NCBI RefSeq assembly: GCF_030286045.1
Contig: NZ_CP127390.1
Span: forward strand, 2,993,482-3,057,481
Reading direction: 5' to 3'
From: Propionimicrobium sp. PCR01-08-3
Lineage (GTDB): Bacteria; Actinomycetota; Actinomycetes; Propionibacteriales; Propionibacteriaceae
DNA length: 64,000 nt
The notes under the pieces were generated by a model. It was not told the DNA's origin, did no database searches, and worked only from the letters and a program-made list of their open reading frames with translations. Positions 46,176-62,529 of the stretch are shown here, piece after piece. Numbering within the stretch: position 1 is the first letter of the stretch; the number at the start of each line of letters is the position of its first letter. The position numbers and the translations under genes are program-made.

Positions 46176-46910
46176 TCAGGTGTTCTTGGCTGGGACGAAG
46201 CTGTGGAACCTTGTGTAGTACTGGTCTTGAAAGTGCCGAAACGTATCACGCAGGTACCCAGGTTCGTGTGAGTATTCTTGCAAACCACGGTAGTAAAAAG
46301 CCTTCTCGTCGTCGCTGACGACAAACGGCATGATGTCGTTGCTGAGGCATTGCCCGAACAGAATCAGTCTGCCCACACGCCCGTTGCCGTCCTGGAACGG
46401 GTGGATCGTCTCGAACCTCACGTGAAAGTCGCAGATCTGGGCGAAAGTCATCTGCTTCGGTACTTCAGCAAGTAAACGGCTGATCTCGGTATCTACTTGC
46501 TCCGGGGGCGTGGTCGGGTTTCCCCCCACCTCATTGGGAAGCTTCTTCCAATCACCCACTGCGAACCAGTCCTTGGTGGCATCTTGGGTGCCGGTCTTGA
46601 GTATCCGGTGCAGCTCTTTGACGAAACCACTTGTCAACGGCTCACCAACATGATCAATCACGATGTCGAAGGCACGGAAGTGGTTGCTGGTCTCGAGCAC
46701 GTCGTCGACCAAGGCGTCACCGATCACCGTGCGGGTCTCGTAGATAAATCTCGTCTGGTCTTTGCTGAGCCGACTGCCTTCGATGCGGTTCGAGTTGAAT
46801 GCCATCTCAATCTGGGTGAGGTGATAGAGCCCACCGGGGAGTTTCAGTTGGCGCTGCTCGCGCAGGGTTCGCGCGAACTGACTGGCGTCGATCGCATACT
46901 CGTCGGTCAT
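46176..46910 (-). CDS. Fic-domain AMP transferase, class II-like
   Basis: 244 residues. The Fic core HPFQDGNGRVGRLI near residue 155 has the catalytic His and the nucleotide-binding GNGRxxR. N-terminal FNSNRIEGS near residue 35 fits the inhibitory motif SxxxEG, so it should be self-inhibited. Such enzymes modify proteins with AMP or related groups. No antitoxin partner is seen. It sits directly before a decayed choline-kinase fragment. Confidence 0.88.
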   Translation of the reverse strand: MTDEYAIDASQFARTLREQRQLKLPGGLYHLTQIEMAFNSNRIEGSRLSKDQTRFIYETRTVIGDALVDDVLETSNHFRAFDIVIDHVGEPLTSGFVKELHRILKTGTQDATKDWFAVGDWKKLPNEVGGNPTTPPEQVDTEISRLLAEVPKQMTFAQICDFHVRFETIHPFQDGNGRVGRLILFGQCLSNDIMPFVVSDDEKAFYYRGLQEYSHEPGYLRDTFRHFQDQYYTRFHSFVPAKNT

Positions 46911-46967
46911 GCATTGCTCCTCGTGCTGCCGTACTGCTCAGTCTAGGTTCCTCGATGAGAACCCCTG

Positions 46968-47193
46968 TGTCACCTTTCGAACAGGCCAGCGCCAACCGAC
47001 GCCCCGTGAGCGTGCCCATTATCTCGGGTATGTCGCCTTGTCGGGCTACTACTGGTTCGTCTGGGCGATCTATCAGGAAGTCAAGGGCAACCCGGTGGAC
47101 GAGTACCTCTACCTCTGGTACCGCTACGCCCAGTCGTTTAGCGCGAAGGCGCTGGCCGCCTACGAGCAACTCGTCCCGGCCGCCGTCGCATAG
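46968..47193 (+). pseudogene. Remnant of a LicA-like choline kinase (C-terminus only)
   Basis: About 75 codons whose translation matches the last part of the LicA domain in the gene at 47311-49146: PRERAHYLGYVALSGYYW against FAERRHFWAYVVFAGWCW, and later DEYLYLWYRYAQ against GEWLFIYYKYAV. About one third of positions agree, so this is a diverged copy. The N-terminus and the kinase motifs are missing, and no start codon with a ribosome site precedes it. Confidence 0.75.
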
Positions 47194-47310
47194 TCCCGTG
47201 TTCAACAACAACGCAGAATGAACACAACTTGAACATCGTTCGTCTTTGCTGTGTACTGGTCATGAATCTGTTGTGGATATCAGCAGGTCGAGACTGCACG
47301 GAGGACACCT

Positions 47311-49146
47311 GTGACGCTGACAAAGTACGAGTTCGAGGTGCTCTTTGCCCTGGCGATCAGCGGCGAAGCGTTGACCCAGCGACAGATCAGTGAACGGCGA
47401 GATGTCTCCCTGGGCAGCGTGAACGCCGCCGTAGCAAGCTGTGAGCGGCGGGGCTTCGTCCAAGATCGTCGGATCACCGAGGCCGGCATTGCCGCGCTCG
47501 AGCCGTATAAGGTCGATAACGCGATCATCATGGCGGCGGGCCTGTCGTCCAGATTTGCCCCGATCTCCTATGAGAAGCCGAAGGGCATGCTCAAGGTTCG
47601 CGACGAAGTGTTGGTCGAACGTCAGATCCGCCAGTTGCTCGAAGTCGGCGTTTCTGACATCACCATGGTCGTCGGATACATGAAGGAATATTTCTTCTAT
47701 CTGAGAGCCAAATATGGCGTCGATATCGTGGTGAATCCCTATTACGCGACGCGCAATAACAATTCGACGCTGTGGCTGGTCAAAGACCGGCTGCGCAACA
47801 CCTTCATTTGTTCGTCCGATGATTATTTCATCGATAATCCGTTTGAGCGCTACGTCTACCAGGCCTACTACGCGTCCCAGTATGTCGAGGGACCGACCGA
47901 CGAGTGGTGCCTGACCACCGGCACCGGCAATCGCATCACCGACGTGACCGTGGGAGGCAGCGATGCCTGGGTCATGCTGGGGCACGTCTACTTCAATCGC
48001 GCCTTCTCCGAGAAGTTCGTGCAGATTCTCGAAGAGGTCTATGACCTTCCGGAGACGGCCGACAAGTTGTGGGAGGGCATTTATGCCGACCACATCAAGC
48101 AGTTGAAGATGGTGCTGCGTCCATATGAGACAGGCTTCATCAACGAATTCGATTCCTTGGACGAGCTGAGCGGCTTCGATCCGGCTTTCATCGAGAACGT
48201 CGACTCCGACATCTTCGACAACATCGTTTCGGTGCTCGACTGCAAGAAATCAGAAATTCACGACTTTTACCCGCTGAAGCAGGGGCTCACCAATCTGTCC
48301 TGCCATTTCGCGGTCGGCGACGAAGAATACGTCTACCGCCATCCGGGCGTGGGCACCGAGCAGATGATCGACCGGGAGGCCGAAGAGGCGGCATTGCGCC
48401 TCGCCCGCGATCTCGGCATCGACGACACCTTCATCTTCGAGGATCCCGCTAAGGGCTGGAAGATCTCGAAGTTCATCCCGGGTGTCCGCAATCTCGACCC
48501 ATACGATTCTGCGCAGGTGAAGCGTGCCATGCAGGTGTGCCGCAAGGTCCATGATTGCGGTGCCACACTCGACCGCGAATTCGACTTCTATCAGGAGGGC
48601 CTCGGCTACGAGAAGCTCCTGGCGCAGCATGGTCCCATCGATGTGCCCGGATACACCGAGCTCAAAGACAAGGTCAGCAGGCTGAAGACCTACGCCGACG
48701 CGGACGGCTACCCGACTTGCCTCAACCACAACGACTTCTTCTTCCTCAACTTCCTGGTCGACAAGAACGATGAACTCAGCCTCATCGATTGGGAATACGC
48801 GGGCATGTCCGACGTCGCGAACGATTTCGGCACCTTCACCGTGTGCTGCCAACTGTCCACGGAGCAGGCCGACGAGGCGCTCGACTTCTATTTCGGACGC
48901 CCGGCGAGCTTCGCCGAGAGACGGCACTTCTGGGCGTACGTGGTGTTCGCCGGATGGTGTTGGTACATCTGGGCGCTCGCCAAGGAGGCCGAGGGTGACA
49001 ACGTCGGCGAGTGGCTTTTCATCTACTACAAGTACGCCGTTGACTACATCGATCAGGTGCTCGACTGGTACGAGTCGGCCGATCGGTACGCAGACGGCCG
49101 GCATGAAGCAAACAACGAAGACGAGCTGATCGAGGTAACGGCATGA
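47311..49146 (+). CDS. Fusion of winged-helix regulator, LicC-type CTP:phosphocholine cytidylyltransferase and LicA-type choline kinase
   Basis: 611 residues from GTG behind GGAGG. Residues 1-68 are a MarR-like winged helix (YEFEVLFALAISGEALTQRQISERRDVSLGSV in part: TQRQISERRDVS). Residues 69-300 are a sugar-nucleotide-transferase-like domain: AAGLSSRFAPISYEKPKGML and FICSSDDYFIDN. Residues ~305-590 are a choline/ethanolamine-kinase domain with LNHNDFFFLNFL (HxDxxxxN) and LSLIDWEYAGMSD. It should phosphorylate choline and form CDP-choline. It overlaps the permease gene by 4 nt. The substrate being choline is inferred. Confidence 0.85.
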   Translation: MTLTKYEFEVLFALAISGEALTQRQISERRDVSLGSVNAAVASCERRGFVQDRRITEAGIAALEPYKVDNAIIMAAGLSSRFAPISYEKPKGMLKVRDEVLVERQIRQLLEVGVSDITMVVGYMKEYFFYLRAKYGVDIVVNPYYATRNNNSTLWLVKDRLRNTFICSSDDYFIDNPFERYVYQAYYASQYVEGPTDEWCLTTGTGNRITDVTVGGSDAWVMLGHVYFNRAFSEKFVQILEEVYDLPETADKLWEGIYADHIKQLKMVLRPYETGFINEFDSLDELSGFDPAFIENVDSDIFDNIVSVLDCKKSEIHDFYPLKQGLTNLSCHFAVGDEEYVYRHPGVGTEQMIDREAEEAALRLARDLGIDDTFIFEDPAKGWKISKFIPGVRNLDPYDSAQVKRAMQVCRKVHDCGATLDREFDFYQEGLGYEKLLAQHGPIDVPGYTELKDKVSRLKTYADADGYPTCLNHNDFFFLNFLVDKNDELSLIDWEYAGMSDVANDFGTFTVCCQLSTEQADEALDFYFGRPASFAERRHFWAYVVFAGWCWYIWALAKEAEGDNVGEWLFIYYKYAVDYIDQVLDWYESADRYADGRHEANNEDELIEVTA

Positions 49147-50150
49147 AATACGGCATTATCAGCGGAATGACCTGGGGCCTCGACACGGTCGTACTGGGTA
49201 TCGCACTAGCAATGGGTGCCTTCGCCGGCGCTCCCGAAGCGTCCATGGCAAGCGCGTTCTTGCACGATGCGGCCTGCGCGCTGGTCATGCTGATCTACAT
49301 GGGGGTGCGCGGTCGGCTGCGGCACACTCTCAGCGCGCTCAAGACCCGCAGCGGCAAGGCCGTCATGGGTGCGGCCGTGCTGGGTGGCCCGTTGGGCATG
49401 TCAGGCTATCTGATCGCCATCAACAACATCGGTCCGGGATATACCGCGATCATCTCCTCGTTCTACCCGGCCGTGGGCACGGTCTTGGCATTCGTCTTCC
49501 TCAAGGAGCGGATGAAGCCGGGCCAGGTGGTGGCGCTGCTGGCGGCGCTGGCCGGAGTGATGCTGATGGGCTGGACGTCTACGACCATCGAAGGCAATGC
49601 CTGGCTGGGCATTATCGGCGCGCTGATGTGCATGATCGGCTGGGGCTCGGAGGCCGTCATTTTGGCTTGGGGCATGAGGGACGACGCGGTCGACAACGAG
49701 ACCGCACTACAGATTCGTGAGACGACCTCGGCGTTGACCTACGCGCTGATCGTGGCGCCGCTGTTCGGCGTGTTGAAGTTCTCCGGGCAGGTGCTGTTCA
49801 CGCCCGCGACCGCGGTGATCGCGCTCGCCGGGCTGGCCGGCACCATCTCGTATCTCTTCTATTACAAGGCGATCGACACCATCGGCGCTGCCCGTGGCAT
49901 GGCGCTCAACGTCTCGTACTCGGCGTGGGCCGTGGTCTTCGGTCTGCTGCTGATGGGTACCGTTCCTGGCCCGGTGACGATCATCTGCTGCGTCGTGGTC
50001 CTGGTCGGGACGGTCCTGGCCGCCACCTCCGATTGGAATGAGCTTCGGTTCGGACGCAAGTCCCGCGGTGGCGAGTCTGTCGCTGCGGACGCCCCGGTCG
50101 GCGCTGGTGTCGGAAGGCCGGCCCCCGAGGCCAATGCATCCGACGAGTGA
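49143..50150 (+). CDS. LicB-like choline permease (EamA family)
   Basis: 335 residues with ten hydrophobic segments in two EamA halves (motifs GPGYTAIISSFYPAVGTVLAF and ISYLFYYKAIDTIGAARGMALNVSYSAWAVVF). It starts in the ATGA overlap with the kinase/cytidylyltransferase gene. The genomic partner LicA/LicC suggests choline uptake, as in LicB proteins of phosphocholine-making bacteria. A short soluble C-terminal tail follows. Confidence 0.82.
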   Translation: MKYGIISGMTWGLDTVVLGIALAMGAFAGAPEASMASAFLHDAACALVMLIYMGVRGRLRHTLSALKTRSGKAVMGAAVLGGPLGMSGYLIAINNIGPGYTAIISSFYPAVGTVLAFVFLKERMKPGQVVALLAALAGVMLMGWTSTTIEGNAWLGIIGALMCMIGWGSEAVILAWGMRDDAVDNETALQIRETTSALTYALIVAPLFGVLKFSGQVLFTPATAVIALAGLAGTISYLFYYKAIDTIGAARGMALNVSYSAWAVVFGLLLMGTVPGPVTIICCVVVLVGTVLAATSDWNELRFGRKSRGGESVAADAPVGAGVGRPAPEANASDE

Positions 50151-50535
50151 GCGAACTGCCTGGTCTGCAGATCGTGCCACTTAGCCCTCGCGAAGGCCGC
50201 CAGCCGGTGTCCCATATTTGATACAAGTACGTGATGCTGTTCCATTTATGGAACAGCTTTCGGAGGCGGTCGAGAGGTCCGGCCAGTCGAAGGACGCTCA
50301 AGCGCGGTATTCCACTAGCCAACCCTGGTTCCCGTACCGTTTCGTCGGCGGAGAGAGTTCAATCTCGCCCTCGACGAGATGTTTCGGACTAATGATGCGA
50401 CGGCGCTGATGGCGTTCTTGGCCATCTGCACGATCTGATGCATCGCGAAGGCGAGCAAGCACCCGATGGGCATCAAAGGCTTCAACGAGGTGATGTTGCG
50501 ACGCCAAGCGGGGCAGGGCCTCGTATTCTGGATCT
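50151..50535. other. Intergenic region with a palindrome and possible gene remnant
   Basis: No intact gene. A perfect 10-bp palindrome stem is at 50236-50257. A frame ending at about 50438 reads FNLALDEMFRTNDATALMAF and could be the tail of a lost gene; no start or family is visible. Confidence 0.4.
50236..50257. terminator. Palindromic hairpin after licB
   Basis: GCTGTTCCAT and its exact complement around a 2-nt loop, followed by TTT. It is a candidate terminator for the lic unit or an operator for the HepT-MntA pair 280 bp further on. Confidence 0.55.
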
Positions 50536-50856
50536 ATGACGACGCTCACACCGACTCGGAGATCTTCTGAGTTGCGCACATTGATTCAGCGCAATCGAGC
50601 AGATCTTGATGCCGTTTTTCGCTCTTATGGAGCAACGGACCCCAGGCTTTTCGGTTCCGTTGCGCGGGGCGATGCTGACGACGATAGTGACATTGACTTT
50701 CTATTTACACGCCCCGCCGGTATGGGGCTGTTCGCTCTCGCCGCGATGGGGCAAGAGCTCTCGGATCTCTTGGGCGTTGCCGTCGATGTCGTGCCCGACT
50801 CCGGCCTCTATGAGCATTTGCGATCGGGCGTCTTGGCGGATGCGGTTCCGATATGA
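50536..50856 (+). CDS. mntA: MntA-type nucleotidyltransferase antitoxin
   Basis: 106 residues with GSVARGDADDDSDIDFLF, the GSX10DXD signature of minimal nucleotidyltransferases. MntA silences the HepT toxin by adding AMP groups to its tyrosine. It overlaps hepT by 4 nt. Start ATG at 50536; a nested frame is not used. Confidence 0.9.
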   Translation: MTTLTPTRRSSELRTLIQRNRADLDAVFRSYGATDPRLFGSVARGDADDDSDIDFLFTRPAGMGLFALAAMGQELSDLLGVAVDVVPDSGLYEHLRSGVLADAVPI

Positions 50857-51188
50857 GTAAACGAAGTGACGAGCAGTTAATTGAAGAGGCGCTGACGCAT
50901 CTCGGCATCTTGCGAGAGCATCTTTCTCGTGGTGACCTGGCAGATCAGATCGTCGCTGATGCTGTGAGCATGCGTTTGGCCGCAGCCATCGACGCGTTAC
51001 ACCATGGCGAGCCGCTCCTGGGAGAACGGCTGTTTCTCAGCGACTGGCGCAAGATCTGGGGCACGCGTAACTACCTTGCTCATGGTTACGCGATCCTCGA
51101 TATTCAGATGATCGCGGAGACTGTTCAGAACGACCTTCCCGAGTTCGAGCGGGTCCTTCGTGAAGAGCTCGGGAGATCGCGCCGGTAG
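50853..51188 (+). CDS. hepT: HepT-family HEPN RNase toxin
   Basis: 111 residues. RNYLAHGY fits the RX4HXY active site of HEPN ribonucleases near residue 72; the rest is helical. It cuts RNA when not modified by MntA, its partner upstream. It separates the lic genes from the glycosyltransferases. Confidence 0.9.
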   Translation: MSKRSDEQLIEEALTHLGILREHLSRGDLADQIVADAVSMRLAAAIDALHHGEPLLGERLFLSDWRKIWGTRNYLAHGYAILDIQMIAETVQNDLPEFERVLREELGRSRR

Positions 51189-51269
51189 CCAGTACTTTCG
51201 CCCTAGACGAGTCGGCTAACAGGGCTGAAGGGACGCGAGCGGGAGTCTCACGGAGGACTCTTGCTGGCC

Positions 51270-52115
51270 CTATTTGCGGTGTCCAGCCCGGCCTTGGATT
51301 CGGGTGCGGAGTCTGCGTGATCCCATCTCTATCAGGCGGACGCATACCCGCGCGGTGAGAACGGCCATGCCGAAGATCATCTCATCCAGGCGGAGCGCAC
51401 CGGCCTTATGGGCGCCCCGAAACGCCTGATATTCACCGGCAATCATGCGCCAGATGGCCGACGACAGCCCTGACTCCCCGTAGGGGTTCTTGAAGGTTCC
51501 GACCAGCTGCGAATCGATGCGGATCATCGGGCGGCCGAGCGCCAAGATCAAGAGCCAGGTTTCATGATCCTCCGAGTATCGCCGCCCGGCGGGAAACCTG
51601 ACCGGTATGTCTTGGCGGACCATAGCGGTTGACGTCCCGATCGGGTTGATCAGGAGGAAACGTCGTTTCGATAGCCTGCGAGTGGGCGCATCATCAACGA
51701 CCGGGAGTGAATCCAGAGCTGCCTGGTCGCCGACTTGCCCCCAGCCGGCAGCGACGAGCACGGTGTCGGGGCCGGTTCGCTCTGCCGCGCGTAGTTGGGT
51801 CTCGATCTTGCGGGAGTGCCAGACGTCATCCGCGTCGAGAAAGGCGACCCAGCGCCCCTGGGCAGCGTCCCAGCCAATATTGCGCGCTTCACCGGCGCCC
51901 CCGTTTGAAGGCAGGACGATCAGTCGCGCGTGGGGTGTCTCGGCCACGATAGCTGCGGCCAGGCGCGATTCCTCCGGTGATGAGGCGTCGTCAACGACGA
52001 TGATCTCTCGCACCCGAGAAGTCTGCTGCGTGACCGAATCAAGAGCGCGTTGCAGCGTCCCAGACGAGTTGAAGAACGGAATGATGGCGGTTACGTCAGC
52101 GCATGCTTTGGTCAT
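51270..52115 (-). CDS. Family 2 glycosyltransferase
   Basis: 281 residues. GT-A fold with VTAIIPFFNSSGTLQRALDSV, IIVVDDASSPEES, FLDADDVW (DxD) and a C-terminal helical part ending in a basic tail. Acts in the cytosol on a sugar nucleotide; acceptor unknown. It belongs to the leftward group with the DUF2304/GT2 pair further right, and is the last gene of that unit. Confidence 0.85.
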   Translation of the reverse strand: MTKACADVTAIIPFFNSSGTLQRALDSVTQQTSRVREIIVVDDASSPEESRLAAAIVAETPHARLIVLPSNGGAGEARNIGWDAAQGRWVAFLDADDVWHSRKIETQLRAAERTGPDTVLVAAGWGQVGDQAALDSLPVVDDAPTRRLSKRRFLLINPIGTSTAMVRQDIPVRFPAGRRYSEDHETWLLILALGRPMIRIDSQLVGTFKNPYGESGLSSAIWRMIAGEYQAFRGAHKAGALRLDEMIFGMAVLTARVCVRLIEMGSRRLRTRIQGRAGHRK

Positions 52116-52222
52116 ATGTGCGCATCCCTACTGTCGATCACGAATGAACCGGCGTACTTCCTTTGATGCCTGCACGGGGCCGGAAATGGGGTGCGGCGAG
52201 TGGAAGGGGCATGTGTCTTGGC

Positions 52223-52645
52223 CTATGTCCGGTCGGCCGAACCATGATCGGTATCAGAGGGCGATTGCCCGGGCTGATCGTCCTCCGGTTTGTGTGTTTT
52301 CACCCGATCGTCCAACCTGCGCATCTGTAGATCCAAAATGGCGACGTGCTCGGCAAGAGTTCGAGACTTTGCCTCTGTCTTCGAAACCTCCAAGGAGAGC
52401 TGCAAACAGACGGCGAGCAACAGAAGGATGGCGAGTGCGAACAGCAGGTTCGATGGCACTTGCACGCCGACGAGGTGTGCGAGTGAACTCAACAGTCCCG
52501 GGAAAAGCGCCAGCACGATGATGACGAGGCCCACCAGCATCCACAGCGCTACGTACTTCTCGCGTAGCCGACGTGACCTGACAAGGTTGAAGAGCAAAAT
52601 CAGCGTCAGTACGGCAGTGATCAGAAAAAAGATGGTGCCTCTCAT
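52223..52645 (-). CDS. DUF2304 membrane protein
   Basis: 140 residues with three hydrophobic segments (FFLITAVLTLILLFNLV, ALWMLVGLVIIVLALF, LLFALAILLLLAVCLQL) and a cytosolic coiled-coil-like tail. DUF2304 proteins sit beside polyprenyl-phosphate glycosyltransferases and are thought to assist them; the mycobacterial Rv3632/Rv3631 pair is comparable. It overlaps the GT2 gene by 4 nt. Confidence 0.85.
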   Translation of the reverse strand: MRGTIFFLITAVLTLILLFNLVRSRRLREKYVALWMLVGLVIIVLALFPGLLSSLAHLVGVQVPSNLLFALAILLLLAVCLQLSLEVSKTEAKSRTLAEHVAILDLQMRRLDDRVKTHKPEDDQPGQSPSDTDHGSADRT

Positions 52646-53379
52646 GCTGCGTCCTTCTTTTCGTCCACCCGGTCGCCACGTTTGACCGGACGCCTGGTGA
52701 GCGCCACCAGCAACGAGAACATCGAACGGCCCAGATAGACGGCGGCCTTGTAGGGATTGTTTGATGGCGCGCCGGCTTGCCGTGGCCGCATCGCTACCGG
52801 CACCTGGGCCGCGCTGAGCCCTGAGCGGAGAGCAACGACCAGAGAATCCACCGTGTCTCCGAGGTACTCGACGGGGTAGTACCTGACGTACTGTTCGATG
52901 GCTTCCCGATCAGCAGCCCGGAATCCGCTGGTGATATCGGTCAGCTTGGTGCGAGCCAGCCGCGACACGATTCCGGCGAGCATCATCATCGCCCAGCGCC
53001 TGGGCCCGTGAACCTCGTAGTCGCCGCTTCCGGCGAATCGTGCTCCGATCGAGATATTGGCGTGTTCGAGACCCGCCAGCACTTTGGGGACGTTGCGCGG
53101 ATCATGCTGGCCATCTGCGTCCAACTGAATGGCTTGGTCGTAGTCGAATCGTTTGGCATAGGTGAAACCGGCGCGCATGGCCCCGCCGACTCCGAGGTTA
53201 TAAGGAAGACTGAGCACGCTGGCCCCAGCGGCCTGCGCAACGGCAACCGTGTTATCGGTAGACCCGTCGTCCACCACCAAGACGTCGATATCGGGAAGCA
53301 CCAAGCGGGCTTCCGCAACAGTCGTACCGATCGCCTCTTCCTCATTCCACGCCGGCATGATGAGCAATGTGCGCGGCAT
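52642..53379 (-). CDS. Family 2 glycosyltransferase, polyprenyl-phosphate type (DPM1-like)
   Basis: 245 residues from the ATG after GAGGTGAAG (an upstream frame is not used). LLIMPAWNEEEAIG, DVLVVDDGSTDNT, QLDADGQHDP (DAD) and a C-terminal RRPVKR basic end. It lacks membrane spans itself; the DUF2304 gene that follows may supply them. It would load a sugar on polyprenyl phosphate for use outside the membrane. Confidence 0.88.
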   Translation of the reverse strand: MPRTLLIMPAWNEEEAIGTTVAEARLVLPDIDVLVVDDGSTDNTVAVAQAAGASVLSLPYNLGVGGAMRAGFTYAKRFDYDQAIQLDADGQHDPRNVPKVLAGLEHANISIGARFAGSGDYEVHGPRRWAMMMLAGIVSRLARTKLTDITSGFRAADREAIEQYVRYYPVEYLGDTVDSLVVALRSGLSAAQVPVAMRPRQAGAPSNNPYKAAVYLGRSMFSLLVALTRRPVKRGDRVDEKKDAA

Positions 53380-53691
53380 CTTCACCTCTCGATCGGTCTG
53401 GCGTATGCACCACCTCATAGCAGGATAGCTGTCGAGAACTCTAGTGGCTGTTGTGAAGGGGCCGTGTTGAAGCACCCGGCGGTTCGGTCATGTTCGGACG
53501 CCCAACGCGACAGTTGCCTACCTGGGCCTGCCTGTCGCGTAGTATTCGATGCCCAAACAGGTGACGAAAGCGTCTTCGCCCCCGGGGCAGCTATTCGAGC
53601 GTGATCGCTGAACAGATCGGCCCTGTTATCTTTATCACTGGTTGCGAGCACACACATATACGAGTGTTGGGCCAACTGGAGAGGTTGAGCG
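53380..53691. promoter_or_regulatory. Divergent control region between the GT2 and licD genes
   Basis: This 312-bp gap separates leftward and rightward units. It includes a GGAGAGG site for the licD gene and AT-richer words (TATCTTTATC, CACATATACG) near 53626-53662 that could be promoter elements. No gene is convincing. Confidence 0.4.
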
Positions 53692-54546
53692 ATGGCGTTC
53701 AAGGAGTACGAGAGCCCCGAGTTGCTACGCGAGGTTCAACGAGTCACGGTCATCGTTTTGGCCGAGTTCGACAGGGTTTGCCGGTTGCTCGATATTCCCT
53801 ACGTCGCCTACGGTGGCACCGCGATCGGCGCTGTGCGGCACCAAGGTTTCATTCCGTGGGACGACGATGTCGATGTGGCGATGATGCGCTCGGATTACGA
53901 GCGTTTTCTGGCCGAGGCGCCCGCGGTCTTGGGCGACAATTTCGAGATTCATAACACCAGGAATCATCGCGACTTCACTGCGGTCTTCTCGTTTCTGACT
54001 CTCAAGGGCACGCAGCTCGTGCACGAAGACATCAAGGATCACTCCTACCGCAAGCCGGTGAGTGTCGATCTCTTCCCTCTCGACAACGTTGCCGATGACC
54101 CGAAGCTGCGGCGCCGGCAATGCCGGCAGGCCTGGTTCTGGGGCCGCCTCATGTATCTGAGTGCAACGGGAAAACCGAATGTGGCATTGACCGGCTGGAA
54201 GCGTTCCCTCGTCTTGGCAATCACTTCTGCTGCCCATTGGGCAATGCGCGTCCTGCATATGGACGGCGCCTGGGTGCAGAAGCACTGGGACAAGGTGGCT
54301 CGGCGATACGAGAACGACACCACCGAATTGATGGCCGACTTTTCCGACCTCACCCCGATGGCTTGGGCGGTAACGGCCGAGGACATGTTTCCGGCGGTCG
54401 ATGCGCCTTTCGAGAACCTCACGATCAAGATCCCGCGTGACTATGACAAGGTCCTCACCAACGGTTTCGGCGATTATATGGAGTTACCGCCGGTGGAGAA
54501 ACGCAAGAACCACGCCCCCTACTTCATCGATCTTGGTGAGTACTGA
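53692..54546 (+). CDS. LicD-family phosphotransferase, copy 1
   Basis: 284 residues. The LicD core near residue 40: YVAYGGTAIGAVRHQGFIPW followed by DDDVDVAM, the metal-binding acidic run; VSVDLFPLDNVADDP in the middle. LicD proteins transfer phosphocholine (from CDP-choline) or other phospho groups to glycans. It starts behind GGAGAGG and runs into the GT4 gene after 3 nt. Its donor being CDP-choline is inferred from the lic genes 3.5 kb to the left. Confidence 0.88.
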   Translation: MAFKEYESPELLREVQRVTVIVLAEFDRVCRLLDIPYVAYGGTAIGAVRHQGFIPWDDDVDVAMMRSDYERFLAEAPAVLGDNFEIHNTRNHRDFTAVFSFLTLKGTQLVHEDIKDHSYRKPVSVDLFPLDNVADDPKLRRRQCRQAWFWGRLMYLSATGKPNVALTGWKRSLVLAITSAAHWAMRVLHMDGAWVQKHWDKVARRYENDTTELMADFSDLTPMAWAVTAEDMFPAVDAPFENLTIKIPRDYDKVLTNGFGDYMELPPVEKRKNHAPYFIDLGEY

Positions 54547-54549
54547 GCC

Positions 54550-55635
54550 ATGCGCATCGCCTTCTTGGTCAACAACTATCCGCCTCACGTCGGCGGCCTT
54601 GAAATGCATGTTCATGCGCTTGCCTGCGCCCTGCGCGGTCGTGGCCACGACGTCACGGTGGTCGCGCTCAGCGACTCACCGGGCGAATCAGACGAGGAAG
54701 ACATGCATGTCATCCGACTGCGCGAGCGCTTTCGGATAGCCGATGTGCTGGCATTTCCGCCGCTCGGCACGGCACGGCGGCTTCGGCAGATGCTGCGTGA
54801 TGGCGGCTTTGATCTGGTGTCGGTGCACACGCGCTTTTTCCCCATGACCTGGTTGGGTGTCGATGCCGCCCGGGCCTGCGGCATCCCGGTGGTCGTCACT
54901 GAGCACGGCTCAGGTTACGTTGCGTCCAATTCACCGATCATCGCTGTTGCGTCCAGGATCGTTGACCTCACTTTCGGACGCCGCGCTCTGCGCCGCGCCA
55001 GCCACGTGATCGGGGTGTCGGAGAACGCGGTGGCGTTCGTGAAACGGCTGTCCGGAGCCGAGGCAGAGGTCTTCTACAACGCCATCGACCTGCCGGCTCA
55101 GGCGCCGGAAACACCGGCCCGAAATCCCAAACATCTGGTCTTCGTGGGTCGGCTGGTGCCGGGCAAGGGCTGGGAAGCATTCATGGAGACGGTGACTCAG
55201 CTGCGGGCTAAGGGGTTCGACGTCACCGGGAGCCTGCTCGGGAACGGTCCCGACGAAGAAGCAGCTCGGCGGGCCGCGCCGGATGGTGTTACCGTTCATG
55301 GCCGGGTTTCGCCGGCAGAGGTGGGCGTCCAATTGCGGGGTGCGACTTTGGTGAATCCGACCGTGCTGTCCGAAGGCTTCCAGACAACGCTGCTCGAGGC
55401 CCTCGCCGCCGGCGGCCAGGTGGTGACCTATCCGGTGCCGGGCGCGCAAGTGCTCGCTGACGACGGTGCTCCGGTGACGATCACCGACCGGCGCGACCAA
55501 ACGAGCTTGCGGCAGGCGGTCGAGGCGGTTCTGGACGACCCCGGTGAGCCTTACCCGTGGCGCAAGCTGGAGAAGTGGTCGTGGCGAAACAGGGCGGCCC
55601 AGTTCGAAGCGATCGCCGCCGAACTCATTCGTTAG
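54550..55635 (+). CDS. Family 4 glycosyltransferase (GT-B)
   Basis: 361 residues. N-terminal FLVNNYPPHVGGLEMHVHALA, a GT-B interdomain, and C-terminal VNPTVLSEGFQTTLLEALAAG with the EX7E motif region. It uses a sugar nucleotide to extend the polymer on the cytosolic side. It forms a two-gene unit with the first licD and its 3' end overlaps the convergent flippase gene by 11 nt. Confidence 0.88.
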   Translation: MRIAFLVNNYPPHVGGLEMHVHALACALRGRGHDVTVVALSDSPGESDEEDMHVIRLRERFRIADVLAFPPLGTARRLRQMLRDGGFDLVSVHTRFFPMTWLGVDAARACGIPVVVTEHGSGYVASNSPIIAVASRIVDLTFGRRALRRASHVIGVSENAVAFVKRLSGAEAEVFYNAIDLPAQAPETPARNPKHLVFVGRLVPGKGWEAFMETVTQLRAKGFDVTGSLLGNGPDEEAARRAAPDGVTVHGRVSPAEVGVQLRGATLVNPTVLSEGFQTTLLEALAAGGQVVTYPVPGAQVLADDGAPVTITDRRDQTSLRQAVEAVLDDPGEPYPWRKLEKWSWRNRAAQFEAIAAELIR

Positions 55636-56947
55636 GTTCTGGTTCGGTGGGAAGGGGCTCGGCAACTGCTGGCCCCTTCTTGAAGGCACGGAGGATGAAG
55701 GCCGCCATCACAATCGCGCCGATGCCGTATGACGCTATTCCAGTGAAACTCACACCGTTCATGTCCCACCTGTTGACGAAGAAGTAGGTGGTCGGAACCG
55801 CGATGACGACTGCCAGCACGTTGCCGATGAAGCTTCCGGTGAACGAACGGAGCACCACGAGCAGATCGCTAAAAAACCAGACGTAGGCGGAGACCACCGT
55901 AGTAGCGATGATCGGAAGCAGCAGGTACGTGTATGGCCGGATGCTGTCTCCGAACATCAGGCTGAGCAGCCAAGGGCCGAGCAGTTCGAGAACGACCGCG
56001 CTGATGAGACCGATGCCGATGATGGCCAGCAGGACTTTGCCAAAGAGGCGAGTGAGTTCTTTCCTGCGGTGTTCGGCAAAATGCGTTGAGAATACACTCA
56101 ACAGAGGGTTGTAGACATAGCTGGCACCCATCTGAATGATGGCAACCGGAGCGGCCACCGAAGCGTAGATACCAAGCGCACTGTCACCTTCCACGAACGA
56201 GAGAAACTGGCGCGGAATTGAAGGGGCTGCGGCGCATGCAACTGCTGCTATGACGATCGGGAAGCAGTACTTGAGCAGATGGATGACCTTCACCCAGCTG
56301 ATGCCGATCTTGATTGGCCCGAATTGTCGCGATCGTGGCAGGTCGTAAAGCAATCCGACAGCAACGGTGACGATGGCCATACCCGCCAGCGCTGCTTCGA
56401 GGCTTCTGCTGAGGCCGAAGATGCCGATGAATGCCACGAAGGTGGAGATGCCCTGGAACATCAGCGATTTGCCGATGTAGTCCATGCGACCGTTCACCTG
56501 GTCAAAGCCGTGTAAGACATCGATGAGCAGCGAACAGATCTTGAAAACAGCGTAAAGACAGATAGCGAAAAGTGTTTGGGGAGGACAGCTGATCGCGGCG
56601 TAGACAATGCACCCGGTCAGGGCCAATCCCGAAGTGACCATCCGAAACGCAAAGTACTCGCCGACCGTGTTCTCACGCCTCACATCGGAGACTTGATAGG
56701 TGTACATCCGATAGATAGCGAGCGGGCCAAAGATGTTATAGACCGTCATTGCCAGCGATAACATGCCGGCTGCGGCATATCCGCCCGACAGCCTCACGAC
56801 TAATATCGTGATGAGCCACTGGAACCCCAAGTAGGTGAGTGAGCCGATCGAGTTCCAGAGCATGTTCGCCCGGATCGACAATGGACGCGGAGCTCGCGAC
56901 TCAGCCGGGCCGGTGCCCTCCTCGCCGCTTGCCGACTCGTCAGTCAT
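55625..56947 (-). CDS. MOP-superfamily polysaccharide flippase (Wzx-like)
   Basis: 440 residues from the ATG overlapping the licD stop (ATGACTGA), with about 12-14 membrane segments. The N-terminus reads NMLWNSIGSLTYLGFQWLITILVVRLSG, typical of polysaccharide flippases. It would move lipid-linked repeat units across the membrane. It looks more AT-rich than the origin block. Confidence 0.85.
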   Translation of the reverse strand: MTDESASGEEGTGPAESRAPRPLSIRANMLWNSIGSLTYLGFQWLITILVVRLSGGYAAAGMLSLAMTVYNIFGPLAIYRMYTYQVSDVRRENTVGEYFAFRMVTSGLALTGCIVYAAISCPPQTLFAICLYAVFKICSLLIDVLHGFDQVNGRMDYIGKSLMFQGISTFVAFIGIFGLSRSLEAALAGMAIVTVAVGLLYDLPRSRQFGPIKIGISWVKVIHLLKYCFPIVIAAVACAAAPSIPRQFLSFVEGDSALGIYASVAAPVAIIQMGASYVYNPLLSVFSTHFAEHRRKELTRLFGKVLLAIIGIGLISAVVLELLGPWLLSLMFGDSIRPYTYLLLPIIATTVVSAYVWFFSDLLVVLRSFTGSFIGNVLAVVIAVPTTYFFVNRWDMNGVSFTGIASYGIGAIVMAAFILRAFKKGPAVAEPLPTEPEPNE

Positions 56948-57746
56948 GCAAAGTGCCATCTTTCCAATAAGACTTACAAAAGTGTGGGAGCCGCTGATCT
57001 TCGGGCGGTGGAGTCATGTAGTCCCCAAAGATGGATGTCAAAAAGGCGTCATAGCTGCGTGGTGCCAGGAAGCTGTGCCCTTCAAACTCCACGGTCGTGG
57101 ATTCCAGAAAGGAGTGCGGCATCCGTTCAGCCGGGCCGTATGACCAGATCACCGTAGCAACATCATTACTGTCAGTGATCGGCGTCGCGGCCGCCAGTCG
57201 GTCGAGTCTCTTTGCCTCCGCATAGATATCCCTACGTCGTGCAAGTGGCGTTAGGACGCTCTTGATGGCCTTTCGGAGGGGGCTGCTCGCAACGCGAGGA
57301 TTTGCTACGACAAAGTCATAGACGCGTTTAGTCCGGGCATTGGCCCGGAACGGCTCGTCGTCTGCTGGTAGACCGTCAACGGGAAAGATGTCGATCCACA
57401 CACCTGATCGATATCGAGGATCCACATATTGCTCGTCGACGTAGGTTCTGCTGTCAACGATCTTGAAGAATGGATAGATCGATGACTTATCCCGATACGA
57501 AATGAGCTTCAGATTCGATCCGGCATGCTCGTCATTGAATAGGCCGTAGAGTTTCTCATAATCCTCCCGGGGCATGGTGATATCGATGTCGTCGTCCCAC
57601 GGTATGAAGCCGTGGTGACGTATTGCGCCGAGCAGCGTCCCATAGGCAAGGTAATACCGCAAGCCATGACGGGTGCAGAAGTCTGCCACATCAATCAAGA
57701 TGCCCAACTCGAGCGTTTTCATCTCGGGAAGTTCAATCGCTTCCAT
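56940..57746 (-). CDS. LicD-family phosphotransferase, copy 2
   Basis: 268 residues. LAYGTLLGAIRHHGFIPWDDD carries the same core as copy 1 (key run GFIPWDDDIDI), then VWIDIFPVDGLPADDE. It differs from copy 1 in its last third. With the flippase (8-nt overlap) and the GT2 gene (14 nt upstream) it makes one leftward unit. It may add a phospho group to a second place on the glycan. Confidence 0.87.
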   Translation of the reverse strand: MEAIELPEMKTLELGILIDVADFCTRHGLRYYLAYGTLLGAIRHHGFIPWDDDIDITMPREDYEKLYGLFNDEHAGSNLKLISYRDKSSIYPFFKIVDSRTYVDEQYVDPRYRSGVWIDIFPVDGLPADDEPFRANARTKRVYDFVVANPRVASSPLRKAIKSVLTPLARRRDIYAEAKRLDRLAAATPITDSNDVATVIWSYGPAERMPHSFLESTTVEFEGHSFLAPRSYDAFLTSIFGDYMTPPPEDQRLPHFCKSYWKDGTLHD

Positions 57747-57760
57747 CTGTGCCTCCTGGC

Positions 57761-58639
57761 TTAGCGATAAACCGTTCTGCGTAGGATGACTGAGGGTATG
57801 TAGGCCAACGCCGCAATGATGCGATTGGGAGCGTTGCGCACGCCACGGCGGGTACCGCTGAGTTGGCAGCCGACGAGGTAGAGGATCGAGTTGTAGAACT
57901 TCAACCAGAAGGTGTCGGAGTATTCCACATACATGCGTTTAAGCGTCATGTAGCCGATCGGGTTCTTCTTCGTGATGGCACGGACATTGGCGGTATAGCC
58001 ATCGGCCAGATACTCGCGCACGATGAGAACCCGATCGATAACACCAAGCGAATAGTGCTGATCGATCTGGTGATAGACGTAGGGCTCCGCCATGAACTTC
58101 TCGCCGTCGGCCACCCAGAATGGATAACGCTTGAGGATCTCCGTGCGGTGCAGCGGAGCCGTATCGCCCTTGTGACCATGTTTGTAGTAGAGATCCCAAT
58201 AGGTTGTGCGGGTGATCCCTGGAGGCATGCCGTTACTGAGCGGTGTTTCGGCGTCGCTCCCGCACATTCCGATCAGGCCAGCGACAGTCGGATCGTCCTG
58301 ATACGACACCCAGCTGTCCAAGACAGTGTCAACTGCTCGAGGAGCGAGCAGATCGTCCGAATCGACGCATAGAAAGAGTTCGCTGGTGCACAACTCGACG
58401 CCACGGTTGTAGGCGCGTTGTTTGCCGCCGTTGGGCTGTTTGGAGTACTCGATGCGGAAGGGAGCGTCCGTCATAAAGCGTCGCACGAGTGCTTCGGTGT
58501 CGTCCGTGGAGCCGTCGTCGACGATCAGCCAGTAGAACTGCCGTGAGTTCTGTCGCTTGAGGCTTTCGAACAGCGCCTCAAGTGTGTGCGCCCGATTGTA
58601 CGTCGGGGTGAATATGCATAAACGCTCCACCTGGCGCAT
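57761..58639 (-). CDS. Family 2 glycosyltransferase
   Basis: 292 residues from MRQVERLCIFT; a longer frame adds 32 residues. CIFTPTYNRAHTLEALFESL, WLIVDDGSTDDTEA and CVDSDDLLAPRAVDTV show the GT-A fold with the DxD motif. The C-terminus has YNSILYLVGCQLSG and a hydrophobic patch. It is the first gene of the leftward licD-flippase unit. Acceptor unknown. Confidence 0.86.
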   Translation of the reverse strand: MRQVERLCIFTPTYNRAHTLEALFESLKRQNSRQFYWLIVDDGSTDDTEALVRRFMTDAPFRIEYSKQPNGGKQRAYNRGVELCTSELFLCVDSDDLLAPRAVDTVLDSWVSYQDDPTVAGLIGMCGSDAETPLSNGMPPGITRTTYWDLYYKHGHKGDTAPLHRTEILKRYPFWVADGEKFMAEPYVYHQIDQHYSLGVIDRVLIVREYLADGYTANVRAITKKNPIGYMTLKRMYVEYSDTFWLKFYNSILYLVGCQLSGTRRGVRNAPNRIIAALAYIPSVILRRTVYR

Positions 58640-58762
58640 GTTACAGGCTTGCCGTTGGCTGTATCCATAGTGGTATCGGTCATTGAAGCTGGCGACCACC
58701 GGATGTCCTCGCGCCTGGCCGAGTAACTCGGTCACGCACAGGTCTGCACGGTGGTGATCGCG

Positions 58763-59743
58763 TTACGCCTCGATGCGCCGGGGCCCTGCCTGCCAGGCTT
58801 CCCAGGCGGACGCAACGATCTCGTCGAGGTCGGCCTTCGCGACAAAGCCCAGATCCTCGCGGATTCGGTCGGCGGAGGCGATCAGCTTCGGTGGGTCCCC
58901 GGCGCGGCGTCCCTCGACCAGAGGCGAAGTGTCCAGCCCGGAGACGCGTCCGATCGATTCGATGACCTCGGTGACCGATGAACCCCGGCCGGTGCCCACA
59001 TTGAACACGTGATGGGTGAGTTGGCCGTCAAGACCGTGCAGCGCGGCGATATGGGCCTCGGCAAGGTCTTTCACGTGCACATAATCGCGAATGCAGGTGC
59101 CGTCGGGGGTGGGATAGTCGTCGCCGAAGACACGGGGCGCCGCACCGTCGGCGAGCTTGTCGAGCACCATCGGGATCAGATTCATGATCACCGAATCTCC
59201 AAGTTCGGGCCAGCCGGCACCGGCGACGTTGAAGTAACGCAGTGCCACCCAGTTGAGCCCCCAAGCCCGCTCGCAGTCCGCGAGAATCCACTCACCGATC
59301 AGCTTGGAGCGTCCATATGGGTTGATGGGTTCGGTCGGCGAATCCTCGGTGACCACTGCATCCTCAGGCGCGCCATAGACCGAAGCAGACGACGAGAAGA
59401 TCATCTTTGTCACGTTCTCGCGGCGCATCGCCTCCAGCACATTCACCAGGCCGCCGATATTCTGCTGGTAATAGAAGAGCGGACGCTCGACCGATTCGCC
59501 GACCTGCTTCTTCGCGGCGAAGTGAATGACCGCGTCAACCTTCTCGCGGCGGATAACACCGGCGAGAGCCTCGGGCGCAGCATTGGCGGAGATGTCGATC
59601 TGTTCGAGCGTGGTATCACCGATCCGGGCAGGCACGCCGTTGGACAGGTCGTCCACGACCACAACGTCGGTGCCCGATTCGCGTAGCAACCGAACCACAT
59701 GGGAGCCGATGTAGCCCGCGCCACCCACAACAAGAACGCTCAT
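58763..59743 (-). CDS. galE: UDP-glucose 4-epimerase
   Basis: 326 residues. Rossmann GGAGYIGSH at the N-terminus, SSSASVYGAP and the YGRSK active site (YxxxK), and the GalE-type C-terminal part (VFNVGTGRGSSV). It interconverts UDP-glucose and UDP-galactose for the glycan. Confidence 0.93.
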   Translation of the reverse strand: MSVLVVGGAGYIGSHVVRLLRESGTDVVVVDDLSNGVPARIGDTTLEQIDISANAAPEALAGVIRREKVDAVIHFAAKKQVGESVERPLFYYQQNIGGLVNVLEAMRRENVTKMIFSSSASVYGAPEDAVVTEDSPTEPINPYGRSKLIGEWILADCERAWGLNWVALRYFNVAGAGWPELGDSVIMNLIPMVLDKLADGAAPRVFGDDYPTPDGTCIRDYVHVKDLAEAHIAALHGLDGQLTHHVFNVGTGRGSSVTEVIESIGRVSGLDTSPLVEGRRAGDPPKLIASADRIREDLGFVAKADLDEIVASAWEAWQAGPRRIEA

Positions 59744-59969
59744 CCGTCTTCTCCTAGCTCATTGCTTCGCCATTGAGGTCGTGTCCGATGGTAGTGCAGG
59801 AAAGCCAGAGCATTGTTAAATGCCAAACCTGGCGAGATACACGGTGCTCCTCCGACTATGAGGCATCCTTGGGCAAGTCTCCCTACTCTGAGTAGGGTGT
59901 CTCGGGCCCGACCGGTAGTCTTCGTAGCGGATTCGTGTGGAATCTGAAGCGGTTGGAAGGCGATATCGG

Positions 59970-61514
59970 ATGGGTCCCAGTTCGAAGGCTCGGCGCCGAA
60001 GCACGTTGGGGGTAACGCTGCGTATCCTCGGCTGGATGGTCCCGCTCGCGGGGTTTTTGCTGACAGGCTGGGCTTGGGCCTGGTCATCACCTGTGGGATC
60101 AGGTCCCGATGACGATTATCACATGGCGAGTATCTGGTGTCCTACGCCTCTTGAGACATCCGGGTGCCTTGCAGGATACGATGATTCAGGAAACGCCATA
60201 ATTCATATCCCCAATTCGATTGGTCCACGTGCATGTTATGCGCAGCACCCAGACGAGTCTGGGGGATGCCAGCGCGATGTTGAGCGTGAAGTTCAAACGA
60301 CGCGGGTAGATAATGGCGGATACCCGGGCGGCTACTACGACTTCATGCATTGGTTCGTCGGCCCTGATACACACCAAAGTGTGTATTCAATGCGGGTGTT
60401 CAATGTGATACTCGCTGGGCTGCTGTTCGCTGCAACTGCTGCTGTGAGTGGAAAATCGGCGCGGCTACCAGTGATCGGTGGCATGATTGTCGGGCTTGTG
60501 CCGCTCGGGATCTTTTTAGTGGCGTCGGTCAATCCAAGCGCCTGGGCGATTATCGGCGTTGCCGTAGCTTGGGGCAGTACTCACGCATTAATCGCTCCGC
60601 ATTCTGCTCGATGGAAGCGAATTGGAGCAGTTTTGTTGCTGCTTTTGGGGGCGACGATTGCCGCTGTAAGCCGGGGAGATGCCGGTGCTTTCGTAGTGGT
60701 GGTGACGGCAGGATATCTGATACTTCAGTATCGTCGAGGGGCACCACGAATCGCCATCTTCGGCGTCGTCTTGGCGAGTCTAATTGGGCTAATCGGGTTT
60801 ATGTCAGCAGGTCAATCGGCTAGTGGTCTAACTCAACCATGGATTGACGGAGGATCGCTCACGGGGTTTTCTTTGCTGATTCGTAATATTCGGGACTTGC
60901 CGCTGCTCTTTGGTGGAATGTTCGGGTATCAATGGGGGCTGGGTTGGCTGGATACCAGCCTGCCAAGCATCACGGCCGTTGCGATGCTTATGGTGGTTGG
61001 GGGTATCCTCTTCGTTGGCACGCAGCGGATTTCCTGGCGTAAAGGGTTGATCCTAATGATGCTTTTTGGCGCGGCATCGGCTCTCGCGCTCTGGACGCTA
61101 CAGCTAAGTAATACGACAGTTGGCAACCAGGTACAACCCCGTTATCTGCTGCCCCTCATCTTGGTCTTTTGCATGGTGCTTTTCGTGGATGAAAATCATT
61201 CTGAGCGTTCGATTCACTTCCCCGTGGCGACACGGTGGCTGGTGTGGACGTTCTTGGTCATCGCTCAGTGCTTCGCCCTACAACGAAACATCCGACGGTA
61301 TATAACTGGCATCGATGTTGATGGCTTCAATTTGAATGTGGCCGTTGAATGGTGGGAAGCGCCGGTGCAGCCCATGACACTGTGGGTACTCGGCACGCTT
61401 GGATTTGCCATGTTTGCAGCGGCGCTTCTTTATGTAGGGAGGCCGACTGAGGCCGAGGGCTCCGCCGCGGAAGATCTTGAGCCGACACCTAAGCGAGCAA
61501 CAGCACAGGCGTAG
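59970..61514 (+). CDS. DUF2142 polytopic membrane protein
   Basis: 514 residues from the ATG with GGAAGG 10 nt upstream (a GTG at 59937 is an alternative). About ten hydrophobic segments with a large outside loop after the first, holding the DUF2142-type SGPDDDYHMAS motif with acidic residues, like GT-C glycosyltransferases. Family function unknown; probably a glycosyltransferase acting outside the membrane. Its bases are clearly more AT-rich than those of galE or rmlB beside it, a sign of transfer. Confidence 0.75.
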   Translation: MGPSSKARRRSTLGVTLRILGWMVPLAGFLLTGWAWAWSSPVGSGPDDDYHMASIWCPTPLETSGCLAGYDDSGNAIIHIPNSIGPRACYAQHPDESGGCQRDVEREVQTTRVDNGGYPGGYYDFMHWFVGPDTHQSVYSMRVFNVILAGLLFAATAAVSGKSARLPVIGGMIVGLVPLGIFLVASVNPSAWAIIGVAVAWGSTHALIAPHSARWKRIGAVLLLLLGATIAAVSRGDAGAFVVVVTAGYLILQYRRGAPRIAIFGVVLASLIGLIGFMSAGQSASGLTQPWIDGGSLTGFSLLIRNIRDLPLLFGGMFGYQWGLGWLDTSLPSITAVAMLMVVGGILFVGTQRISWRKGLILMMLFGAASALALWTLQLSNTTVGNQVQPRYLLPLILVFCMVLFVDENHSERSIHFPVATRWLVWTFLVIAQCFALQRNIRRYITGIDVDGFNLNVAVEWWEAPVQPMTLWVLGTLGFAMFAAALLYVGRPTEAEGSAAEDLEPTPKRATAQA

Positions 61515-61518
61515 TTGA

Positions 61519-62529
<1,011 letters not shown>

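Follow-up and report, generated by a model that had tools for sequence, protein, structure and literature searches.

We analysed a 64,000-nucleotide stretch of contig NZ_CP127390.1 of Propionimicrobium sp. PCR01-08-3 (hereafter the window), and the genes described here very probably form a Lic-1-type phosphocholine route on an exchanged surface-glycan cassette, with phosphocholine display as the predicted outcome. A fused LicC-LicA protein (LicCA), an overlapping LicB-type permease, two LicD proteins, a Wzx-fold flippase and glycosyltransferases lie within 47.3-58.7 kb of the window. An earlier note on this DNA had named the fused LicA/LicC, the LicB-like permease, the two LicD proteins, the flippase and several glycosyltransferases; all were confirmed by structure, Pfam and fold matches, and the named pieces are intact open reading frames (ORFs) on re-reading the DNA. 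The start that it gave for the block, 46968, falls in a licCA remnant and not in intact licCA. Its prediction of choline uptake, CDP-choline formation and transfer gains support from the predicted LicA pocket, from the co-occurrence of LicCA with choline-binding repeats and from the repeats encoded in the same cassette. Choline as the substrate is well supported at the level of sequence, because the aromatic cage of LicA is retained, the partners in relatives are LicB or BCCT-family proteins, and the sole choline-repeat protein found in the genome is encoded in the same cassette. The winged helix on LicCA and an MNT/HepT pair inside the block are additional to the earlier note. The features that make up the route are as follows.

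46882..47193, plus strand: remnant of a second, different type of licCA (C-terminal, about 58 residues, kinase domain), with 60% identity to the C-terminal end of Ellagibacter-type LicCA (loci L077/L079) across 58 residues
47199..47235, no strand: operator-like inverted pair TGTTCA-N25-TGAACA, a perfect motif match (half-sites 47199-47204 and 47230-47235; an extra TGAACA at 47219-47224)
47311..49146, plus strand: licCA, a MarR-type winged helix, a CTP:phosphocholine cytidylyltransferase and a choline kinase in a single protein
49143..50150, plus strand: licB-type DMT permease, likely for choline uptake, with a 4-base overlap with licCA (solved LicB 7b0k, E 2e-33; EamA)
53692..54546, plus strand: LicD_a, likely phosphocholine transferase (PF04991, E 2e-36)
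55625..56959, minus strand: Wzx-type lipid-linked glycan flippase (AlphaFold model with a Foldseek match to WzxE)
56940..57746, minus strand: LicD_b, a likely second phosphotransferase, overlapping the flippase gene (PF04991, E 1e-43)

The fused LicCA protein and its choline pocket

LicCA has 611 residues, of which 70-286 match the LicC structure 1jyk (E 2e-40), 311-577 match the LicA structure 4r77 (E 2e-21) and the N-terminal residues 3-51 match a MarR-type winged helix (MarR_2, E 4e-8). Its AlphaFold model has a mean predicted local distance difference test (pLDDT) score of 90, with values above 90 in the winged helix. When the model was searched with Foldseek, the best matches were to pneumococcal LicC (template modelling (TM) score 0.92 by target length, 35% identity) and to LicA (TM score 0.87, 24% identity).

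The earlier note had offered the aromatic residues of the choline pocket as a check on its claim. Based on the LicA residue roles given in parts of PMC4364537, T29, D176, N181, D194, E196, Y197, W251 and W254 are retained in LicCA, and Y268 is changed to W and V178 to F. The check is therefore positive for LicA, where Y197, W251 and W254 stand and Y268 is replaced by W; on the LicC side it covers the aromatic residues W136 and W191, both retained. LicC position D107 and the metal ligand E216 are retained as well; D107 we take to be metal binding, and W136 is presumably a choline box member. In 87 aligned LicCA rows, in which the window protein is present twice and some loci contribute two rows, no variation was seen at D107, E216, W191, D176, N181, D194 or E196, whereas D192 is replaced by E in 87/87, D105 by S in 79 and E213 by C in 73 and by S/T in 14, with W in place of Y268 in 76. 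The LicCA of Actinomyces gerencseriae (L014) is 65% identical and carries the window letters at the LicA pocket and at LicC D105, D107, W136, W191, D192 and E216, differing at 3 of the 31 tabulated positions (80, 93 and 152). This species carries Lic-1 enzymes and is phosphocholine-positive by antibody alone, according to parts of PMC10434233. Because E213C, D105S and D192E are family-wide and common to the antibody-positive A. gerencseriae, the changes appear to mark the fused subfamily and not a loss of choline.

In a LicCA tree the window copy stands apart from the eight family rows, with L101 on a very long branch and L095 beside Actinomycetaceae copies. The window copy falls near Atopobiaceae with weak support (80/29), and no donor is claimed. 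Second licCA-type copies, some partial, lie near the first in several loci (L017, L019, L073 and L077). In L006, L007, L008, L010 and L072, a winged-helix LicC-only protein is encoded about 3.6 kb past licCA (L007:15406-16311); the L007 protein was scanned and has a MarR-type winged helix, and no TGTTCA dyad was listed before the LicC-only gene (at most one mismatch, gaps 22-28).

Partner genes, choline-binding amidase and exchanged cassette

The match of the LicB-like permease to the solved LicB covers residues 2-291, and transport is predicted. Among 80 named loci, 50 have a LicB-related open frame that starts no more than 300 bp behind LicCA, and in 41 of these the identity is at least 45%; the count was made on stop-to-stop open frames with default LicCA ends and misses some copies, including that of A. 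gerencseriae. Two Firmicutes relatives have a BCCT-family transporter gene after their LicC/LicA-type genes. The two LicD matches at this locus are the only ones in the 3.29 Mb genome, and the columns G46, R49, H50, G52, F53, I54, P55, W56, D57, D58, D59 and D61 are invariant in 30 aligned LicD rows. LicD_a is 42-51% identical to the LicD downstream of licCA in the Actinomyces-labelled loci L011, L014, L015, L016, L018, L025, L028 and L029; in Actinomyces loci a related LicD directly follows licCA-licB, and the order in A. gerencseriae is licCA, LicB, LicD. LicD matches 150 residues or longer were found in the examined flanks of 53/80 loci, and in 17/80 one stands directly downstream on the same strand. 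The flippase gave no Pfam or NCBIfam match at E 0.01 and no sequence match to any solved chain in the PDB. Its predicted fold (AlphaFold, pLDDT 90) matched WzxE (9g9n and 9g9p, TM 0.70-0.72 by Foldseek), which points to a MOP fold.

A search of the genome for choline-binding repeats gave seven matches, all in a single ORF, L092:11955-13613, which belongs to the right end of the licCA cassette and starts about 11 kb past the window end. No other ORF with such repeats was found in the genome, and this one encodes an Amidase_2 domain and a C-terminal array with 7 Choline_bind_1 and 6 Choline_bind_3 stretches. The array scored 221 bits with the PspA model, compared with 47.5 for the glucan-binding repeat model, and the amidase would presumably bind choline. 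The pairing was also seen in wider samples. In a family sample, where LicCA was found in 9 of 197 genomes, repeats were present in 3/9 LicCA genomes and 0/188 others (Fisher 7e-5), and in a phylum sample of 396 genomes, with LicCA called at E to 1e-60 in 18 and repeats found in 14, they were present in 12/18 and 2/378, respectively (Fisher 6e-17; both values ignore shared descent). The two phylum genomes with repeats only had a single match each (E 5e-4 and 1e-3). At the genus level the repeats occurred in 9/13 LicCA genera and 0/224 others, or in 8/13 when two single weak matches were dropped. Among the named loci, the repeat test covered the genomes of 33 of the 80, and 23 of these 33 had repeats. 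The 16S sequence of the genome studied here reaches at best about 86% full-length identity to those of the same 33 genomes, 2 of which yielded no match. Using a strict pattern that under-counts choline-binding genes, a repeat ORF was found in the examined flanks of 10/80 loci, in eight of them at most 400 bp from the LicCA start, and in six of these eight on the opposite strand. Choline-binding motifs of Bifidobacterium dentium have been in print since 2009, as stated in part of PMC2788695.

The cassette spans about 32 kb with a G+C content of 59.1%, compared with 63.7% and 62.7% at its sides, and by gene-order comparison it is one exchanged at a conserved site. In the congener G072, the left genes (PcnA, EamA, MscS, PBP, abhydrolase, AKR and YkuD, with AlkZ missing) and the right genes (PlsC, SDR and AckA) stand in the same order and are 65-88% identical. 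Between these flanks G072 has other glycan genes, a 73% identical RmlB, and distant relatives of the ABC exporter and GT2 proteins; at E 1e-10 nothing at that site matched the choline-binding amidase, LicCA, LicB, LicD or Wzx. LicCA was absent from all 7 other listed genomes of the genus. Since the cassette also encodes an RmlA-type nucleotidyltransferase, RgpF/WbsX-type proteins, more GT2s and an ABC exporter that carries a Wzt C-terminal domain, the acceptor is probably a rhamnose-type glycan. The licCA remnant gave no match at E 0.01 in a Pfam scan; this 58-residue piece of another LicCA type, in front of licCA, suggests that an earlier copy once occupied the site. The remaining features are the following.

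50494..51188, plus strand: MNT/HepT-type toxin-antitoxin pair (PF01909 and PF01934; stop-to-stop frames 50494-50856 and 50814-51188)
51270..52115, minus strand: GT2 glycosyltransferase (PF00535, E 2e-29)
52642..53475, minus strand: GT2 glycosyltransferase (best NCBIfam match, below threshold, polyprenyl-phospho-GalNAc synthase)
54550..55635, plus strand: GT4 glycosyltransferase (family scan)
57761..58735, minus strand: GT2 glycosyltransferase (family scan)
58763..59743, minus strand: GalE-like UDP-sugar epimerase, named by eye from sequence (71% to a protein of congener G090, stretch L119)
59937..61514, plus strand: DUF2142 membrane protein of the same glycan cassette (family scan)
61531..62529, plus strand: putative RmlB-type dTDP-sugar dehydratase of the same cassette (PF16363; 73% to the G072 protein)

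The MNT/HepT pair is probably an unrelated insertion. It lies between licB and the remaining glycan genes and may perhaps stabilise the cassette. A Fic-domain gene (46176-46910) abuts the licCA remnant on the opposite strand and had no match in the examined stretches of the congeners G072 and G090. Just past the right flank of the cassette there is a transposase-like ORF, named by eye (L092:17643-18929).

The inverted pair upstream of licCA

TGTTCA/TGAACA was the commonest hexamer upstream of LicCA. It occurred in 60/77 non-redundant regions (77 of 81 regions retained by an 80% ungapped cut), compared with 9.9% of 1,449 upstream regions elsewhere in these loci, a set taken in front of long ORFs in any frame, of which many are not genes. 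As an inverted pair, TGTTCA-N24..26-TGAACA, it was found in 26, 53 and 71 of the 81 unthinned loci at 0, 1 and 2 mismatches, respectively, whereas permuted half-sites (n = 60) gave a mean of 0.12 (maximum 2) at one mismatch and 2.1 (maximum 11) at two. A second set of 60 permuted half-sites at one mismatch or fewer gave a mean of 0.23 loci (maximum 5, a register-shifted version). When gaps from 15 to 40 were scanned, peaks appeared only at 24, 25 and 26 (16, 33 and 7 loci), and other gaps gave 0-4. The window pair is perfect with a gap of 25. The half-sites are about three helical turns apart, and the spacer between them is A+T-rich and otherwise mostly variable. A closely spaced dyad was sought and rejected, as an exact-dyad search with spacers of 0-14 gave nothing general.

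The wide dyad was first seen by eye in the output of that search and then tested on the same 81 loci, and for this reason a second sample is the fairer test. There, the pair at two mismatches or fewer was found in 18/20 winged-helix copies (permuted mean 0.7), L130 and L140 being those without it, and in 0/3 copies called lacking or degenerate from the start of their LicCA match at residues 36-60 (L144-L146, of which L144 and L146 keep some N-terminal sequence). When the upstream regions of L144-L146 were searched again over 400 and 600 bases, no pair at two mismatches or fewer appeared. L124 repeats the named locus L023 and L129 the named locus L019, where L130 is a second copy, and L125 is nearly identical to L124; 16/17 copies have the dyad without L124, L129 and L130. 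The window's family has nine copies, and L098 (contig end) and L103 (one flank cut) were left out of the dyad count. Four of the six testable copies, whose match starts at residue 1-17, have the dyad at one mismatch or fewer (L096, L097, L100 and L101), and L102, whose match starts at residue 55, has none. Among Firmicutes relatives, no half-site was found upstream of the L. paracasei copy, which closely follows LicD, and the E. eligens copy has two half-sites in the opposite orientation with another spacing.

Across the 1.6 Mb of these loci, another 31 pairs were found at one mismatch or fewer with gaps of 22-28. Several stand before choline-type genes, namely a solute-binding protein gene in four loci without a detected LicB (L007, L008, L010 and L072), a LicB-like permease (L046), a stand-alone choline kinase (L037) and second LicCA-type genes (L073 and L005); others precede unrelated or no clear genes. 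Away from LicCA there were 21 TGTTCA pairs (gaps 24-26, at most one mismatch), which exceeds the permuted mean of 6 but not the maximum of 22, so that, taken together, these additional sites show only modest enrichment. The dyad was not found at one mismatch or fewer in L092/L093, including upstream of the choline-binding amidase. The dyad-preceded solute-binding protein after licCA (L007:11966-12997, also in L008, L010 and L072) could possibly serve ABC-type uptake of choline or phosphocholine.

The simplest reading of these sites is that LicCA would be an autorepressor acting through the upstream dyad. More broadly, we consider it fairly probable that the helix-turn-helix-LicC-LicA protein is a self-regulating choline sensor-enzyme and the regulator of a small choline regulon of Actinomycetota, moving from lineage to lineage inside exchangeable glycan cassettes.

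Alternative readings and known systems

For the substrates, acceptor sugars, export path, DNA binding and controlling ligand, we infer the following scheme. LicB would import choline, which the LicA domain would phosphorylate, and the LicC domain of the same polypeptide would make CDP-choline. LicD_a and LicD_b would put phosphocholine on sugars of a lipid-linked glycan built by the cassette glycosyltransferases, and the glycan would be exported by the Wzx flippase or by the Wzm/Wzt-type exporter of the cassette. The amidase with its seven choline-binding repeats would anchor to the wall via the displayed phosphocholine, as pneumococcal LytA does. The winged helix of LicCA would bind TGTTCA-N25-TGAACA and repress licCA-licB according to choline supply.

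Several observations weigh against this scheme. In the window LicCA, the LicA rim acid E213 is C, and LicC D105 and D192 are S and E, respectively, the latter a change toward the Glu of an aminoethylphosphonate enzyme (PntC); these two LicC positions are discussed in parts of PMC6697681 where LicC is compared with PntC. The LicD and flippase genes belong to other transcription units, 3.5-7 kb away from licCA-licB, and the toxin-antitoxin pair stands between. LicD enzymes can also transfer other phospho groups. The dyad is missing at two mismatches or fewer from 10/81 named loci, from 2/20 winged-helix copies of the second sample and from two of the six testable copies of the window's family (L095 and L099), and a simple scan found no sigma-70-like consensus promoter at the window dyad. 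The Fisher values for the co-occurrence with choline-binding repeats leave shared descent aside. Since repeats were not detected in 10/33 named LicCA genomes, including that of A. gerencseriae, nor in 6/18 and 6/9 LicCA genomes of the phylum and family samples, a choline-binding partner is not obligatory.

Some of these points would suit the same machinery working on another amino-alcohol, ethanolamine or methylated ethanolamine, with phosphoethanolamine as the decoration of the glycan. E213C and the two LicC pocket acids that differ from the pneumococcal enzyme speak for it, as does the general knowledge that LicD relatives can move other groups. Nevertheless we regard it as improbable: the aromatic cage for a quaternary ammonium is retained, the partners are LicB and BCCT proteins, choline-binding repeats lie in the same cassette and co-occur with LicCA, and E213C, D105S and D192E are common to the antibody-positive A. 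gerencseriae. LicCA alone cannot distinguish decoration of a surface glycan from a second fate of CDP-choline, namely phosphatidylcholine synthesis by the LicCA-CPT route of Treponema. This fate seems very improbable here, where two LicD genes and the Wzx flippase gene lie in the cassette. The route is weakened further by the CDP-alcohol phosphotransferases of the genome, three of four of which pass the cut-offs of PgsA, ClsA or PIP synthase; the fourth (L110) has ClsA and PgsA as its best matches, below their cut-offs, in a comparison that held no cholinephosphotransferase model. Activation of aminoethylphosphonate by the LicC domain, as by PntC of Atopobium (Lancefieldella) rimae, would agree with the change of D192 to E and with the winged-helix LicC-only genes near licCA in 5/80 loci (one scanned). 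However, the genome has 0 matches to phosphoenolpyruvate mutase (PF13714), on which grounds this substrate was rejected for the genome, and the substrate needs no kinase, yet LicC is fused here to a choline-kinase domain; we find this alternative barely credible.

The dyad could instead belong to a separate choline-responsive regulator and not to the LicCA winged helix, which is possible but rather doubtful. The DNA binding of LicCA is a prediction, the dyad also precedes uptake, kinase and second licCA-type genes elsewhere, and some winged-helix copies are without it. On the other hand, the dyad tracks LicCA across many genera, and the split between 18/20 winged-helix copies and 0/3 lacking or degenerate ones also holds over 400/600 bases.

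By every genetic feature tested, the locus is Lic-1. The Lic-1 systems of Haemophilus influenzae (licABCD) and Streptococcus pneumoniae (lic1/lic2: licA, licB, licC, licD1, licD2 and tacF) have the same uptake, kinase, cytidylyltransferase and LicD steps, and the likeness extends to a MOP-fold flippase, two LicD genes and an amidase with choline-binding repeats in the genome. Unlike in those systems, LicC and LicA are fused behind a winged helix in the window, the amidase domain is Amidase_2, and LicD and the flippase are in separate units of a larger glycan cassette. We did not notice tarI/tarJ in the cassette, and no search was aimed at them. Actinomyces gerencseriae and A. viscosus, Atopobium (Lancefieldella) rimae and Olsenella uli have lic genes as here. 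Parts of PMC6697681 already noted them in A. rimae and O. uli, parts of PMC10434233 noted them in Actinomyces, and LicD was noted in Gardnerella in part of PMC2928729. The phosphocholine trait is thus not new in actinobacteria, and the pathway is of a known kind, because actinobacterial Lic-1 genes and antibody evidence from Actinomyces are already in print. PntC shares the LicC fold with the window LicC, but its preferred substrate is aminoethylphosphonate and it has no choline kinase fused to it, according to parts of PMC6697681.

The regulatory features are another matter. The parts of PMC10434233 and PMC6697681 consulted do not mention a winged helix, an operator or a choline-binding protein, and the terms 'helix-turn-helix' and 'MarR' are absent from the main text of PMC6697681. 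A search of open-licence literature brought up no description of the winged-helix fusion, of its operator or of LicCA occurring together with choline-binding proteins, and as far as that search reaches, the TGTTCA-N24..26-TGAACA pair upstream of LicCA is new here. LicCA has features of a trigger enzyme, namely a fused DNA-binding domain and a conserved operator-like site before its own gene. NadR and BirA likewise combine an enzyme with a DNA-binding domain, though for LicCA the DNA binding is a prediction. We know of no such trigger enzyme from choline activation.

On the bacterial surface, phosphocholine imitates host lipids and serves as an anchor for wall enzymes, and it is known best from a small number of respiratory bacteria. 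In the present genome, a complete predicted route, a choline-repeat wall enzyme and a candidate control switch stand together in one exchanged cassette, and the pairing of the enzyme with choline-binding repeats recurs across actinobacterial genera. If LicCA is indeed the regulator, its regulon would comprise licCA-licB, second licCA-type genes, a stand-alone choline kinase, a DMT permease and, where LicB was undetected, the solute-binding protein, and perhaps also choline-binding-protein genes that diverge from licCA. Choline supply would then be coupled to phosphocholine display and to choline-anchored wall enzymes.

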